NCBI GenBank assembly: GCA_902595795.1 | Contig: CACJRK010000008.1 | Location: 1 to 48,703 of the forward strand | Direction of reading: 5' to 3' | DNA: 48,703 bases | From: an uncultured Pelagibacteraceae bacterium | Lineage (GTDB): Bacteria > Pseudomonadota > Alphaproteobacteria > Pelagibacterales > Pelagibacteraceae | Made by a program: the position numbers and the translations under genes | Notes under the pieces: model-generated | Seen by the model: only the letters and a program-made list of their open reading frames with translations | What the model was told of the DNA's origin: nothing | The model's database searches: none | Part shown: positions 2,028 through 14,674 of the stretch, one piece after another | How positions within the stretch are numbered: position 1 is the stretch's first letter | Layout of the letters: every line of letters begins with the position of its first letter

Positions 2028-2852
2028 TTATTTTTTACCTTTTAAAGTTATTTTTACATCCGAAAGATCAACCAGATTTTTTTTATAGTTATTTCTTACA
2101 AAACCTTTGCTAGTGATATCTTTAACAATTTTTAATAATTGACTCTGATCTTCTGAGTTTTGATCTTCTGTGTTCATTATTTCATTTCCTCCAATTGCTG
2201 GGGTATGAGCTAGATCTTCTCTATTTTGGTATGAAATAGCTAACTCTCTGAAAATATAATCTAAAATTGATGTTGCACTTAGAATTCTATCATTACCATG
2301 TACTTTACCAGAGGGTTCAAATTTTGTACCAACAAATGCACTAATAAATTCATCTAGCGGAACACCATATTGAAGGCCGAGAGAAACAGCTATCGCAAAA
2401 TTATTCATTAAAGCTTTTACAAGTTCACCCTCTTTACTAGTATCAATAAATATTTCTCCAATTTTCCCATCTTCGTATTCACCTGTATGAAGATAGACTT
2501 TGTGATCACCAATGGTAGCTTTTTGAATATAGCCCTTTCTTCTGTCTGGCATACTAAATCTTTTATCAGATTTCTCGTTTACTTTATTTATATTGGTTAT
2601 TACAGTCTCTTTACTTATTGCACTGTTATTGTTTTTTTCAGTAACCATTTCTACTTTGTTACTTTCAATAACTTTGTTGTTTTTTGGGTCTAGGCTTTTA
2701 GTTTTTCTATTATCAAGCTTTACATCTAAAACTTCGAATTTTCCATCATCCCTTTTTTCTAAATTTTTTAATTCCGCTTCATTTATATCGTCTAAATAGT
2801 GATTTACTTTAAACGAACAAGTGTAATAAGTTTCAACAAGATATTTTGCCAT
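2028..2852 (-). CDS. stand-alone TSCPD-domain protein, NrdJb-like (C-terminal part of B12-dependent ribonucleotide reductase)
   Basis: About 274 residues. The segment from [15 protein letters not shown] through [34 protein letters not shown] and [20 protein letters not shown] matches the C-terminal TSCPD region of adenosylcobalamin-dependent (class II) ribonucleotide reductase NrdJ. No catalytic reductase barrel is present. Pseudomonas carries a comparable separate small gene, nrdJb, beside nrdJa; here there is no nrdJa neighbour. The middle (about residues 55-110) is polar and low in complexity. An upstream ATG at 2885 exists, but AAAGGAC sits just before the ATG at 2852, which gives the protein start [12 protein letters not shown], so I prefer that one. 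It converges with aspS, 3 bases apart. A role in nucleotide reduction is inference; it could be a regulatory relic. Confidence 0.8.
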
Positions 2853-2959
2853 TTGTCCTTTTTTTAAATTTGAATATTGAATCAATTAATTTATATACAT
2901 ATTCATATTTTAGTCTAATTTAAATTTTACAATTTTTAATTGAAAATAAAAAAAAAATT

Positions 2960-6136: not shown

Positions 6137-6907
6137 AAAAAAGATAGTCTGATTATTGCAAATAAAAAATTTAATTCCAGATTAATTGTTGGAACTGGTA
6201 AATATAAAAGTATGACTGAGTGTGCAAAAGCAATTACATTATCTGGAGCAGAAATTGTAACAGTTGCTGTAAGAAGAGTGAATATTTCTGATAAAAAAAA
6301 ACCTTTACTTATGGATTATATAGATCCAAAAAAAATTACATATCTGCCAAATACAGCAGGATGTTTTAATTCAAAGGAGGCCTTGAGAACACTAAGACTT
6401 GCTAGAGAAATAGGTGGTTGGAAATTAGTTAAATTAGAAGTTTTAGGAGATAAAAAAAATTTATTTCCTGATATGATTGAAACTTTAAAATCTACCGAGG
6501 TACTAGCTAAAGAAGGATTTAAAGTTATGGTTTATTGTAATGATGATCCTTTAATGGCTAAGCGTCTAGAAAATTCAGGCGCAGATGCTATTATGCCTTT
6601 AGCTGCTCCTATTGGGTCAGGATTAGGAATACAAAACAAAATTAATATTCAAATTATTAGAAAACAAACTAAACTTCCATTAATTATAGATGCCGGCTTA
6701 GGTCAAGCTTCTGATGCAACTATAGCAATGGAATTAGGATGTGATGGTGTACTTGTAAATACCGCAATTGCAAAAGCAAAAAAACCTTTTGAAATGGCAC
6801 TTGCTTTTAAAAATGCAGTTATTGCAGGTAGACAATCTTATAAATCTGGACGAATAGATAAAATTTTAATGGGCAATCAATCTTCTCCATCAAAAGGAAT
6901 TATTTAG
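6134..6907 (+). CDS. thiG: thiazole synthase
   Basis: The TIM-barrel ThiG has about 257 residues and joins deoxyxylulose phosphate, dehydroglycine and ThiS-thiocarboxylate into the thiazole phosphate of thiamine. Recognised stretches are SRLIVGTGKYKS, GAEIVTVAVRR, LPNTAGCFNSKEALRTLRLARE, WKLVKLEVLGD (Schiff-base lysine region), MPLAAPIGSG and IDAGLGQASDA. I place the start at TTG 6134, because GGAGGT (6121-6126) lies 7 bases before it; an in-frame TTG at 6119 precedes that site and has no evident ribosome-binding site. The gene converges on rne with an 8-base overlap. Confidence 0.95.
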   Translation: MKKDSLIIANKKFNSRLIVGTGKYKSMTECAKAITLSGAEIVTVAVRRVNISDKKKPLLMDYIDPKKITYLPNTAGCFNSKEALRTLRLAREIGGWKLVKLEVLGDKKNLFPDMIETLKSTEVLAKEGFKVMVYCNDDPLMAKRLENSGADAIMPLAAPIGSGLGIQNKINIQIIRKQTKLPLIIDAGLGQASDATIAMELGCDGVLVNTAIAKAKKPFEMALAFKNAVIAGRQSYKSGRIDKILMGNQSSPSKGII

Positions 6908-8717
6908 TTTTTTTATAATATTTTTTTTTCTTAAAAGTTTTTTTACTTATTTTTGGAATTCTTTTTTTTTCTACAAATTTATCTTCTTTATATTTAGTGT
7001 TTAAATTTTTTAACTTTTCATAATATTCTACTAACTCAATTGTTTTTTTTGTTTTATTTTTAATATCTATGATATACTCAGGTATAATTAAAGAATTGTC
7101 ACTTACAATATCTATAGTTATTTTGTTTTTTTTTTCAAAATAAGTTAAGTTATCAACAAAATTTTCTTTAAGGAAATCCGAAATTTTTTCACAAACTTTT
7201 AATTCAACAAACTTAGCTTTATTAATTACAGCTTTTAGCTCAACAATTTTTAGAAGTTTTTGAGCAAAAGATTCATCTGTTAAAGTAACTTTCCATTTAA
7301 TTGCACTCTCTCTAAGTCTTTGTCTAGACATTTCTAAAAGACCAAAGTTACTTATTCTACCAATTTGGATCCTTGCTCTATCTACCCTACATTTTTCTTT
7401 AAGTTTTCTCTCTACTAACCTTCTATTCCCGTAACTAAGCATGTCAATAAAATCTATAATAATTAAACCAGACAAATCTCTTATTTTTATTTGTCTTGCA
7501 ATTTCTTCAGCTGCTTCAATATTTGTATCTAATGCAGTGCTTTCAACATTTTTTCCTTTTATTGAACTTCCAGAATTTATATCAATTGACACCAAAGCCT
7601 CTGTAGGATTAATAACAAGATATCCACCTGATTTAAGTTTAATTTCAGAGTCAAAAATTTGATTTAATTTTTGTTCAATGTTTTCTTGTATAAATAGTGG
7701 AATTTTACCTCGATATTTTTTTACTTTTTTGACACTTGATGGCATCATAGTTTTCATAAAGGATTGCGCTTTTTTATATCCATCGTTTCCTTCTACAATT
7801 ATATTTTGAGTATTATCATCAAACATATCTCTTAGAGTCCTTTTAATTATTTCACTTTCTTGATGTATTAAAGAAGGAGCAATAGAGTTTATTGCATTTA
7901 CTTTTATTTGACCCCAAGTGTTAATCAAAGTTGTTAAATCATTTTTTATTTCATTTTTTGTTTTATTACTTCCAGCAGTTCTAACTATTAAACCCATCTC
8001 TTTAGGTATTTCTATTTCATTTAAAATCGCTCTGATTTTTTTTCTATCAGTTGGATTAAATATTTTTCTAGAAATACCACCCCCTTTAGGAGTATTAGGC
8101 ATTAAAACTATATATTTTCCTGCAATTGAAATAAAAGTGCTTAAAGCAGCACCTTTTTGACCTCTTTCATCTTTATTAACTTGTACAAGAATTACTTGAT
8201 TAGGTTTAATTACTTCCTGAATTTTATATCTTTTAAATTTAAACCTATGTTCCCTTTTTTTTTCTTTTTCATCTAATGAGGTTTCTTTAGAGATAGCATT
8301 TTCTTTGCCACTAGAGTCCTCATCTAATTGATCATTAATTTCTTTTTCAATAGGATCATCTATTTCTAATTTTCCTTCAGCAATATTTTCTTCCTCTTTG
8401 GCCTCAACTTCTTTGGAAAGTTCTTCTCTAGCTTTTTTTTCTTCCTCTTTTATTTTTTCTAAATCTGCTTTTGGAATTTGATAATAGTCTGACTGAATAT
8501 CATTAAATGATAGAAACCCATGTTTTTCTCTTCCAAAATCAACAAAAGCAGCCTGTAATGAAGGTTCAATTCTACTTACTTTGCCCAAATAGATATTATT
8601 TTTGATTAAGTTATTCTTTAAACCTTCGTATTCGTAATCTTCAATGTTTTCGCCTGATTTAAGAACAACTCTAGTTTCATTAGGATGCGATGCATCGATA
8701 TATAAATTTTTTTCCAT
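6900..8717 (-). CDS. rne: ribonuclease E/G family endoribonuclease, short form without zinc-link cysteines
   Basis: The protein has 605 residues. The S1 domain (about 35-200) is split by an acidic insertion at about 85-157, as in many alphaproteobacterial RNase E proteins. The 5'-sensor and DNase I-like catalytic parts follow: ALVSIDINSGSS with Asp379 and LIIIDFIDM with Asp422, spaced 43 residues like Asp303 and Asp346 of E. coli. GRISNFGLLEMSRQRLRES is present, but the CPRC zinc-link expected directly after it is missing; the segment IKWKVTLTDE stands there instead. The tail is short and strongly basic (ends KKKKYYKKTK), with no long degradosome scaffold. Expected roles are mRNA turnover and rRNA/tRNA processing. 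It converges with thiG. Confidence 0.95.
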   Translation of the reverse strand: MEKNLYIDASHPNETRVVLKSGENIEDYEYEGLKNNLIKNNIYLGKVSRIEPSLQAAFVDFGREKHGFLSFNDIQSDYYQIPKADLEKIKEEEKKAREELSKEVEAKEEENIAEGKLEIDDPIEKEINDQLDEDSSGKENAISKETSLDEKEKKREHRFKFKRYKIQEVIKPNQVILVQVNKDERGQKGAALSTFISIAGKYIVLMPNTPKGGGISRKIFNPTDRKKIRAILNEIEIPKEMGLIVRTAGSNKTKNEIKNDLTTLINTWGQIKVNAINSIAPSLIHQESEIIKRTLRDMFDDNTQNIIVEGNDGYKKAQSFMKTMMPSSVKKVKKYRGKIPLFIQENIEQKLNQIFDSEIKLKSGGYLVINPTEALVSIDINSGSSIKGKNVESTALDTNIEAAEEIARQIKIRDLSGLIIIDFIDMLSYGNRRLVERKLKEKCRVDRARIQIGRISNFGLLEMSRQRLRESAIKWKVTLTDESFAQKLLKIVELKAVINKAKFVELKVCEKISDFLKENFVDNLTYFEKKNKITIDIVSDNSLIIPEYIIDIKNKTKKTIELVEYYEKLKNLNTKYKEDKFVEKKRIPKISKKTFKKKKYYKKTK

Positions 8718-11153: not shown

Positions 11154-12248
11154 TGGATAATAGTTATCAAAATTTAAAAGATGAGGTGTTGAGAATAAAT
11201 CAAAGAATTAAGGAGTATCTTTGAAAAGAATAAAATTCAATCAAAACTAAAATCTTTAAATTCGCAAATGTTAGAAGCCAATTTTTGGCAAGACAAAAAT
11301 AATTCTCAAAAAGTAATTAAAGAAAAAAAATTTTACGACGATTTAGTTACTTCATTTAAAAATTCTGTTGAAAAACTAAAAGATTTAGACGATTTAACTG
11401 ATTTAGCTTTAGAGGAAGATAATTTATTAGTTCAAAAAGAAATATTACATAATATTAAGGATCTAAAGAATGAGGTTAAAAAAAATGAAATAAAATGTTT
11501 TTTGTCTAATGAAGCTGACTCATTAGATTGTTACATTGAAATTCATGCTGGAGCAGGTGGAACTGAAAGTCAGGATTGGGCAGATATGCTTAGAAGGATG
11601 TACTTAAAATGGTCAGATAAAAAAAATTTTAAATCAAGCTTAATTAGTGAGCACAGAGGAGATGAAGCGGGGATTAAATCCGCAACAATTAGAATAGATG
11701 GAGACTATGTATTTGGATGGCTTAATAAAGAATCCGGAATTCACAGACTTGTAAGAATATCTCCATTTGATTCAGGAGCAAGAAGACATACAAGTTTTGC
11801 AAGTGTTTGGGTATATCCGGTCGTTGATGAAAATATTAACATAGAGATTTTGGAAAAAGATTTGAGAATAGATACATATCGATCTAGTGGAGCAGGTGGA
11901 CAACATGTTAATACTACAGATAGTGCCGTAAGAATAACTCATATTCCTTCAAAAATTGTCGTCCAGTGTCAAAATGAAAGATCTCAACATAAAAATAAAG
12001 AAACATGTTTGAATATGCTAAAAGCAAGATTATATGATTTCGAAATTAAAAAAAGAGAACAAGAAAATCAAAATATTGAAAGTTCAAAATCAGAAATAGG
12101 ATGGGGTCATCAAATTAGATCATATATTTTACAACCATATCGACTTGTAAAAGATAATAGAACTAGTTTTGAAAGCACAAGTCCAGATAAAATATTAGAT
12201 GGCGATATCGATGAATTTTTGGAACAGTCACTTTATAAAATAAAATGA
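11153..12248 (+). CDS. prfB: peptide chain release factor 2, programmed +1 frameshift
   Basis: The gene is read in two frames. Codons 1-23 run from the ATG at 11153 to CTT at 11219-11221, followed by an in-frame TGA (11222-11224). A +1 shift on CTT-T continues at GAA (11223) to the stop at 12246-12248, giving about 364 residues, the E. coli RF2 length. RF2 releases peptides at TGA and TAA. The SPF anticodon-like tripeptide (ISPFDSGARRHTS) and the GGQ catalytic motif (SSGAGGQHVNTTDS) are both present. A reading that begins at the ATG at 11268 would omit 38 real residues. It overlaps mrcA by one base and the AsmA-like gene by four (ATGA). Confidence 0.96.
11210..11224 (+). promoter_or_regulatory. 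prfB programmed frameshift (recoding) site
   Basis: The sequence AAGGAG TAT CTT TGA puts a Shine-Dalgarno-like AGGAG three bases before the slippery CTT and a TGA stop after it, equivalent to the E. coli AGGGGG TAT CTT TGA site. Low RF2 lets the ribosome slip +1 and complete RF2, an autoregulatory loop. Confidence 0.95.
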
Positions 12249-14674
12249 AAAAAAATATTTTAAAATATTCTAGTTTACTTCTGTTATTATTGATTATTTT
12301 AATAGCATACCTTAGCTTAGTAGGTATAGAGACAGAAAGATTCAATAATCAAATTAAAAATAGAATTTCAGAAATAAATAAAAATATAGAGATAGATTTA
12401 AAAAAAATTAAATTCACTCTAGATCCTTTAAATTTTAAAATTTTTGCAAAAACAGTTGGCGCCACAGTCTATATTTCAAAAAAACCTTTAGCGTTAGAAA
12501 GTATAAAAACTCAAGTTTCACTTAATTCATTAATAATAAATAAGATTAGATCATCAAATATTGAAGTATCTACAAGATCTATAAAGTTAAATAATTTGAT
12601 TAAATTGATTCGAGTAACAAACAATAGACCTGAATTATTTATATTAGAAAAAATTATAAAAAAAGGTCATATTATTTTAGATTTAGGTTTGAATTTTGAC
12701 GAAAATGGAAAAATTAAAGATGATTATGAAATTAAAGGATTGATAAAGGATGCAAATATTAATTTTTTAAATAAGGCCAAATTCAACAACTTAAATTTTA
12801 ATTTCAACATTAAAAAAAATAATTTTTTATTAAATGAAATAAAATTTAAAGTAGAAAAAGTAAATTTTATCTCCAAAAAAATAAATATAAAAAAGAAAAA
12901 AAACAATTATATAATTGATGGTGTTGTTAAAAATAATCCATCAAATTTAAATTTAAATATATTAAAATTACTAAATTTAAATTTTAAAAATATAATTATC
13001 GATGATATTAAATTTAAAACAGACAATAAGTTTTCTTTCGAAATAGATAAAAAATTTAAAGTTAAAAATATTATTTTAAATTCCGATATAAATATTAATC
13101 AGCTAAAATATAAAAAAAAAGATATATTGCAAAATTATTTACAAGATATAAATGAATTTATTTTACTAAATAATCATAAACTAAATCTGAATTATAAAGA
13201 TTATAATTTATCAGTTAAAGGTGAAGGCGAAATTCAATTAATTGAAAATGAAGTAGATCAAATAAAATATTTAATAAATAAAAAAGATAAAGATTTTAGT
13301 ATTAATACAGAATTGTTTTTAAATAATATCAATTTAAAAACACAAGATTTTTTAAAAAATTTCTTTCCTAAAATAAACAAACAAATTAATTTTAATAATC
13401 AAAAATTAAAAATTAATTATAATAATAATATTTTATCTTTATTTGGTTCTGGAAAATTTAAAATTGATAAAGATTTTGAGGAAATAGACTATTTTTTTGA
13501 AAAAAAGAAAAAACAAATAATTTTTAACACAGAATTAAATATAAAAAATACAAAATTTAAAATTGATAATATTAATTATAACAAAAGAGATGATAGTAAA
13601 ATGAGCCTTCAAATTCAAGGAAACCTAAAAGATAATAAGAATTTAAATATAGAAAGTTTTATTATTAAAGAAAAAAACAATAATATTAAAATTAAAAATT
13701 TATCATTAAATGATTCCAACCAAATTATAAAAATAGATCAAGCAAATTTTAATTATGTTGATACTGAGAACAAAAAAAACAATTACAATATAAAAAAAGT
13801 AGGAGAGAACGATTATAAAATTTTTGGTAATTCTTTTAATGCAAATTCTTTAATTTCAAATTTACTAGATGCAGATGATGAAAAAGAAAAAAATTTTTTT
13901 GAAAATAACTTAATTGTAGACCTAAATTTTAAAGAAGTTTATATTGACAAGATATCCTTTGTTAAGGACCTAAAAGGCAGGTTAAAAATTAATAACAATA
14001 ATATAGTAGACGCAGATATTTTAGCCTTTTTTAATAATTCACAAAATATGAAATTTACAATTAGAACAAACAAGCAAGGTGAAAAAATTACAACTCTTTT
14101 TTCATCAAGGGCAAAACCTTTGGTAAATAGATATAAGTTCATTAAAGGTTTTAAGGATGGTAAAGAAGGATTGTTAGATTTCTATTCTTCAAAAAAAGAT
14201 GGAGTTTCAACATCTAAGTTAGTAATTGATAATTTTAAAGTTAAAGAAATTCCAGCTTTAGCCAAGCTACTAGCCCTTGCATCTCTTCAAGGAATAGCAG
14301 ACTTGCTTACAGGAGAGGGGATTAGATTTACAGATTTTGAAATGAATTTTACAAATCAAAATAAACTTATGAAAATTCAAGAGCTGTATGCAATTGGCCC
14401 AGCAATATCTATTTTATTAGAAGGATACCTTGAGAAGGATAAATTAATTAGCTTAAGGGGCACATTAGTTCCAGCTACAACAATCAATAGATCTATTGCC
14501 TCAATACCTTTGATAGGAGATTTATTGATTGGAAAGAAGGTGGGAGATGGTGTGTTTGGTGTTAGCTTTAAAATTAAAGGACCTCCTAAAAACTTAGAAA
14601 CAACGGTAAATCCTGTAAAAACTTTAACACCAAGATTTATTACTAGAACTTTAGAAAAATTAAAAAAAAACTAA
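12245..14674 (+). CDS. AsmA-like / YhdP-family envelope protein
   Basis: This large protein has 809 residues. A single N-terminal membrane helix (about 7-25, YSSLLLLLLIILIAYLSLV) is followed by a long periplasmic body rich in Lys, Asn, Ile and Phe with alternating beta-strand character. The end matches the AsmA-like C-terminal region of alphaproteobacteria: LTGEGIRFTDFEMNF, YAIGPAISILLEGYL, TINRSIASIPLIGDLLIGKKVGDGVFGVSFKIKG, and a tail with NPVKTLTPRF. AsmA/YhdP proteins are thought to bridge the inner and outer membranes and move phospholipids; that role here is inferred from the family. It overlaps prfB by four bases and converges on tyrS (4-base overlap). Its biased composition probably reflects A+T pressure on a weakly constrained repeat-like body. 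Confidence 0.85.
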   Translation: MKKNILKYSSLLLLLLIILIAYLSLVGIETERFNNQIKNRISEINKNIEIDLKKIKFTLDPLNFKIFAKTVGATVYISKKPLALESIKTQVSLNSLIINKIRSSNIEVSTRSIKLNNLIKLIRVTNNRPELFILEKIIKKGHIILDLGLNFDENGKIKDDYEIKGLIKDANINFLNKAKFNNLNFNFNIKKNNFLLNEIKFKVEKVNFISKKINIKKKKNNYIIDGVVKNNPSNLNLNILKLLNLNFKNIIIDDIKFKTDNKFSFEIDKKFKVKNIILNSDININQLKYKKKDILQNYLQDINEFILLNNHKLNLNYKDYNLSVKGEGEIQLIENEVDQIKYLINKKDKDFSINTELFLNNINLKTQDFLKNFFPKINKQINFNNQKLKINYNNNILSLFGSGKFKIDKDFEEIDYFFEKKKKQIIFNTELNIKNTKFKIDNINYNKRDDSKMSLQIQGNLKDNKNLNIESFIIKEKNNNIKIKNLSLNDSNQIIKIDQANFNYVDTENKKNNYNIKKVGENDYKIFGNSFNANSLISNLLDADDEKEKNFFENNLIVDLNFKEVYIDKISFVKDLKGRLKINNNNIVDADILAFFNNSQNMKFTIRTNKQGEKITTLFSSRAKPLVNRYKFIKGFKDGKEGLLDFYSSKKDGVSTSKLVIDNFKVKEIPALAKLLALASLQGIADLLTGEGIRFTDFEMNFTNQNKLMKIQELYAIGPAISILLEGYLEKDKLISLRGTLVPATTINRSIASIPLIGDLLIGKKVGDGVFGVSFKIKGPPKNLETTVNPVKTLTPRFITRTLEKLKKN

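Follow-up and report, generated by a model that had tools for sequence, protein, structure and literature searches.

The RNase E of Pelagibacterales (SAR11) lacks the zinc-link and may assemble through a metal-free joint

The stretch of DNA analyzed here (the window) comprises 48,703 nucleotides of a contig from an uncultured Pelagibacteraceae bacterium and carries, on its reverse strand, an rne gene encoding a ribonuclease of the RNase E/G family (Table 1). The catalytic domain of its product lies above the curated cut-offs of both Pfam RNase_E_G (PF10150; 3.4e-94, 315.7 bits; cut-off, 25.5) and NCBIfam TIGR00757 (462.5 bits; cut-off, 325.95), which places the protein in the Rne/Rng family, and the protein also matches E. 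coli RNase E in the PDB. The NCBIfam equivalog model for RNase E outscores that for RNase G (403.9 of 908 bits versus 275.2 of 594), both scores falling below the equivalog cut-off. The window rne is the sole RNase E/G match in the source genome, a 1.1-Mb assembly in 43 contigs that is 84% complete.

The rne gene is convergent with a forward-strand ORF that we take to be thiG-like, its NCBIfam matches being weak, and the two overlap by 8 bases at window positions 6900-6907. The PBP1A and prfB genes are divergent from rne. Adjoining prfB is an 809-aa ORF (12245-14674, forward strand) for which we found no NCBIfam match at E<=0.001. A 285-aa ORF with a TTG start (2031-2885, reverse strand) covers positions 925-1133 of the 1222 in the model for vitamin B12-dependent ribonucleotide reductase, of which it is a free-standing C-terminal piece.

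TABLE 1 Position of rne and of the features of its product in the window
Feature	Window position	Strand	Details
rne, RNase E/G family ribonuclease	6900..8717	-	605 aa; ATG start; stop codon 6900-6902
Charged insert, S1/5'-sensor region, residues 81-163	8229..8477	-	28 acidic and 20 basic of 83 residues
DNase I-like domain, residues 356-470	7308..7652	-	Versus 6x2d: Z 20.5, rmsd 1.0, 109 residues aligned
Catalytic Asp379 (E. coli D303)	7581..7583	-	Present in 98/98 SAR11 proteins
Catalytic Asp422 (E. coli D346)	7452..7454	-	Present in 98/98 SAR11 proteins
Zinc-link scar, residues 468-480 (LRESAIKWKVTLT)	7278..7316	-	11 residues with CxxCxGxG absent
Trp475	7293..7295	-	Invariant, 98/98 Pelagibacterales proteins
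Leu479	7281..7283	-	Invariant, 98/98 Pelagibacterales proteins
Small domain, residues 481-553, retained	7059..7277	-	PF20833, E 6.3e-5, 23.5 bits, below the cut-off of 26.8
Lys/Arg-rich tail, residues 566-605, replacing the degradosome scaffold	6903..7022	-	About 40 residues, 18 Lys/Arg

A preliminary description of this locus had noted that the catalytic aspartates are spaced as in E. coli RNase E. Indeed, the two residues are 43 positions apart in both proteins and align with D303 and D346. In an alignment of 98 distinct SAR11 proteins, D379, N381, and D422 (E. coli Asp303, Asn305, and Asp346) were present throughout, as were the 5'-sensor residues V204, R246, and T247, the last two corresponding to E. 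coli R169 and T170. The S1 aromatics F58 and F68 were found in 96 of the 98, the other two having gaps. We take R169, T170, and the S1 aromatic residues to act as sensors of the 5' monophosphate. The DNase I-like domain, which holds the active site, is well conserved as judged from its structural match. According to excerpts from PMC4245959, Caulobacter RNase E also has an insert in S1.

The same description had reported that no cysteine pair stands at the zinc-link site, and we likewise found none; the residues that it quoted there, IKWKVTLTDE, are residues 473-482 of the window protein. Following the SRQR of the preceding helix, E. coli RNase E has 12 residues and then CPRCSGTGT, whereas the SAR11 sequence falls 11 residues short of this and contains no cysteine. 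The columns of E. coli C404, C407, G409, and G411 are gaps in 98/98 distinct SAR11 proteins, so that the zinc knuckle of the window protein is missing through a clean 11-residue deletion between two retained domains. We did not find CPxCxGxG between the large and small domains in the window protein or at any of 100 readable SAR11 sites. The preliminary description had allowed that a zinc-link might lie elsewhere in the protein. This was ruled out, because CxxC occurs nowhere in 100 SAR11 proteins (including 4 truncated by the end of a contig) and 10 full-length proteins contain no cysteine at all. Among the rest, 60 have two cysteines, 27 have one, and 3 have three; those of the window protein are Cys443 and Cys509, and Cys509 is present in 51/98. 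Judged from its sequence, the SAR11 RNase E is a member of the Rne/Rng family that lies outside the zinc-linked form.

At this site, a form with the tryptophan and leucine listed in Table 1 (W...L) was read in 100 of 101 Pelagibacterales loci. These 100 come from 62 genomes and 38 named records, two sources between which species may overlap, and represent each of the 10 genera and 2 families of the order that were sampled. The 101st locus (L042) has a frameshift, and W...L can still be read in its second piece. The alignment of RNase E/G across the order, which the preliminary description had proposed, places the deletion in all 98 distinct proteins. The site was read in 62 of the 180 Pelagibacterales genomes with an RNase E/G match. 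Alignment A1 comprises the window protein and 47 of 80 loci, and A2 comprises 39 of the 48 A1 rows. The alignment statistics leave out two frameshifted loci (L042 and L057) and identical proteins, and identical proteins are likewise left out of the cysteine counts and conservation figures. Seventeen Pelagibacterales genomes had no RNase E/G match, five of which (G111, G120, G123, G160, and G188) are at least 90% complete, and two more (G116 and G149) have stops inside the match; in these seven, the missing or interrupted gene reflects either assembly gaps or real loss.

Outside the order, CxxC was present in 169 of 170 genomes read from the rest of the Alphaproteobacteria, which span 105 family codes, in 26/26 Pseudomonadota outside the Alphaproteobacteria, and in 40 of 41 named loci of other groups, the exception (L057) being frameshifted. 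The 170 class genomes comprise 154 loci, mostly better-scoring matches and small genomes, together with 16 from a second search, which also supplied the 26 other Pseudomonadota; the 170 do not represent a random sample of the 378 non-Pelagibacterales genomes that had a match. Seven loci of doubly fetched genomes were left out of the site counts and the CxxC scan. A stricter pattern, R-x12-CxxC-x-G/A, was found in 234 of 237 non-SAR11 loci, the exceptions being L054, which has CxxC without the glycine, and the two misses L057 and L263. The last of these (genome G532, family code f15) is the one case among the 170 that departs from CxxC: it reads S-P-Y-C at the zinc-link, with the first cysteine lost and no deletion, and is possibly an independent loss. 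Ten small alphaproteobacterial genomes (family codes f41, f122, and f9; 1.2 to 2.0 Mb) retain the motif, so that genome size alone does not explain the loss.

In a tree of 125 RNase E/G proteins built from 379 columns, none of them after residue 465 and hence none from the linker, the 28 SAR11 rows fell on one side of a single branch. The SH-aLRT value of this branch was 89, which is below 95 and was not starred, and the tree came from a fast search and has some long branches in other parts. Since SAR11 forms one clade on a tree that excludes the linker, the simplest account would be that the zinc-link was lost once, before the two Pelagibacterales families split. Chance is excluded as the source of the deletion, which is identical in 10 genera, whereas 169/170 other class genomes have CxxC.

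The small domain that follows the scar is retained, and PF20833 matched 46 of the 48 members of A1 (SAR11 and others) at E<=0.001. When modelled alone, this domain reached a pLDDT of 88.5, and its best PDB match was E. coli RNase E (2vmk_A; Z 13.0, rmsd 4.5, 93 residues). The best eight matches were all E. coli RNase E (Z 11.0-13.0, 85-93 residues, rmsd 4.5-5.0), and the next one had a Z of 8.0. The lone-chain model of the whole protein matched E. coli chains spanning all domains with an rmsd near 15 A, because the domains are placed differently in the lone chain. Despite the retained fold, conserved residues have been lost. Of 94 other alphaproteobacteria, 87 share N453 with E. coli, 80 share K455, and 78 share R456, whereas 8/98 SAR11 proteins have N453; in SAR11, this residue is replaced by Glu in 62/98, K455 is replaced by Phe or Tyr in 77/98, and R456 is replaced by Val or Ile in 53/98. 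The contacts of the small domain in SAR11 may therefore be new rather than kept. The YLLNxKR stretch, highly conserved in other alphaproteobacteria (residues 515-521; window 7155-7175, reverse strand), is replaced in SAR11. Two duplex-groove residues are also changed, K433 to Ile or Leu in 52/98 and Y269 to Glu in 66/98, a weak comparison in that gaps cover the columns of R488 and R490 and the groove also varies among other alphaproteobacteria, of which 30/94 have Arg at the R488 position.

Beyond the last modelled strand (residue 565), only the basic tail listed in Table 1 remains, in agreement with the earlier remark that the C-terminal scaffold is nearly gone; the window protein does not have the long disordered scaffold with partner motifs that marks the degradosome type. 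The distance from SRQR to the end of the ORF has a median of 142 residues in SAR11, compared with 323 for loci from other alphaproteobacteria, a set in which the retrieved sequence often stops before the ORF does.

Within residues 469-605, Trp475 and Leu479 are the only positions that are invariant in the 98 distinct SAR11 proteins, and over residues 480-560 these proteins have a mean pairwise identity of 49.6% and a minimum of 12.5%. Two invariant residues in so fast-changing a stretch point to selection. In the lone-chain model of the window protein (mean pLDDT, 78.6), the pLDDT drops below 50 at residues 475-477. An invariant tryptophan in a linker that is predicted to be disordered in the single chain suggests an interface, although the low pLDDT may reflect flexibility only.

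According to excerpts from PMC2631609, the dimer interface of E. coli RNase E is dominated by its two DNase I subdomains, the zinc pair is located between the large domain and the small one, and enzymes with a mutated or deleted motif form no tetramers and have substantially lower activity. The zinc-link of E. coli serves mainly in tetramer formation, and earlier work reported in part of PMC12510024 found that a tetramer kept together artificially without the link is still active. The preliminary description held that the zinc-link holds the dimer together and that this enzyme must dimerize differently. It was right about the loss but overstated the consequence, since the E. coli dimer rests mainly on the DNase I domains. 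That domain is well conserved in the window protein, and the principal dimer can therefore form as usual. What must differ is the tie between the two halves at the scissor joint, and perhaps also the placement of the small domain.

As read from the alignments, the enzyme retains the active site, 5' sensor, S1 domain, and small domain, has no knuckle, and carries invariant Trp475 and Leu479. Because the catalytic and dimer-forming domain is intact, we infer that the SAR11 RNase E is most likely active and at least dimeric. We lean toward a model in which this active enzyme lost its knuckle in the stem lineage of the order and needs no zinc for assembly, which relies on the DNase I face and the small domain, with a Trp/Leu clasp. 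The knuckle would have been lost in the Pelagibacterales stem, most simply by one in-frame deletion of 11 residues, and the principal dimer would still form through the DNase I-DNase I face. Where the large and small domains meet, the shared zinc would give way to Trp475 and Leu479 of the short linker, packed there probably across the twofold axis, and a metal-free dimer or tetramer would be completed by the small domain that remains. The linker would thus be a hydrophobic clasp, probably doing the zinc's job of tying the joint, and the protein would be a minimal RNase E that, given the absent scaffold and zinc-link, assembles with neither zinc nor thiols. More tentative is the proposal that the whole order exchanged a shared-zinc joint for this metal-free clasp in one step. 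If true, a structural metal site in an oligomer interface would have been replaced in nature, and the contact between the small domain and the partner's RNase H domain may have been rewired, and with it the recognition of structured RNA.

The main rival is a dimer with its small domain in cis. Here no tetramer would form, the enzyme would be a DNase I-linked dimer or a monomer, and Trp475 and Leu479 would pin the small domain on its own large domain. We regard this as rather unlikely. Since loss of the motif blocks the tetramer and lowers activity in E. coli (excerpts from PMC2631609), the SAR11 enzyme could be weaker or dimeric. The SAR11 linker is also shorter by 11 residues, the small domain has lost conserved residues, and there are changes among the duplex-groove residues, which two chains contribute in E. 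coli. To go by the title of Caruthers 2006, a minimal RNase E peptide that has no tetramer domain reportedly keeps core catalysis. However, the small-domain fold is retained although its described role lies in oligomers, and the groove residues vary in other alphaproteobacteria too.

Neutral decay, in which the zinc-link became dispensable once the scaffold had gone and then eroded, leaving the tryptophan and leucine as leftovers, is improbable. It draws some support from Caulobacter RNase E, whose CxxC aids phase separation of the C-terminal part according to excerpts from PMC12510024, a part that SAR11 mostly lacks. Two residues that are invariant across 98 proteins in a fast-changing stretch indicate selection instead, and other short RNase E proteins (L217, ORF of 598 aa; L172, ORF of 610 aa) keep both cysteines, which also weakens the idea that zinc-link loss is a mere consequence of scaffold loss. 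Still less credible is that metal is bound elsewhere by other ligands, such as Cys443 and Cys509, histidines, or acidic residues; most SAR11 proteins do have one or two cysteines, but the 10 cysteine-free full-length proteins, the lack of CxxC in all 100, and the patchy occurrence of Cys509 argue against it. Sequencing error at the site, which the preliminary description had raised, assembly error, or a pseudogene is already refuted, because the in-frame form recurs in 100/101 loci from MAG, single-cell isolate, and single-contig genomes and nothing at the site itself speaks for an artifact, although a few genomes of the order have a broken copy (the frameshift in L042 and the stops in G116 and G149).

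The SAR11 variant of the enzyme is apparently undescribed. CxxC is said to be well conserved across alphaproteobacteria in section 8 of PMC12510024, and the parts of the literature covered treat the zinc-link as a standard component of RNase E, needed in E. coli for the tetramer and for full activity. Among the matches listed in our literature search, which left most subscription papers outside, none describes an RNase E naturally without a zinc-link, the Rne/Rng family itself being known. SAR11 bacteria are very abundant in the ocean. An order of them without the zinc-link is a natural experiment on the need for metal and tetramer in RNase E, the Trp/Leu pair is a precise two-residue replacement that is open to mutation, and the loss may be relevant to the zinc or redox economy of streamlined bacteria. 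Among 21 genomes searched, RNase J (TIGR00649) was matched in 18, 10 above the cut-off and 8 just below it, so that RNase E is not the sole possible initiator of decay; PNPase scored above the cut-off in 18/21, and RNase Y was found in 0/21. In one genome (G000), an RNase J-type protein above the TIGR00649 cut-off (C2:95709-97322) occurs together with RNase E.

The SAR11 enzyme shares the catalytic aspartate pair and the 5'-sensor residues with the E. coli RNase E catalytic domain (PDB 2bx2 and 2vmk), from which it differs in having no CPxCxGxG, a linker shorter by 11 residues, an invariant tryptophan and leucine, no C-terminal scaffold, and an insert in the S1 region. With Caulobacter crescentus RNase E it has in common the S1 and 5'-sensor domains and the S1 insert (4oxp; Z 24.9, rmsd 2.1, 193 residues), but the Caulobacter protein reads CEHC at this position and carries a scaffold that is long and disordered, whereas SAR11 has neither cysteine. 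RNase G resembles the SAR11 enzyme in being short, without a scaffold, and without the duplex-groove residues of RNase E (excerpts from PMC9841416); unlike SAR11, two loci of RNase G length (L076 and L077; 489 and 496 aa) have CxxC. Cyanobacterial RNase E, like that of SAR11, naturally lacks one of the two oligomerization elements, and it is the mirror image of the SAR11 enzyme, with the zinc-link present and the small domain absent according to excerpts from PMC10989914.
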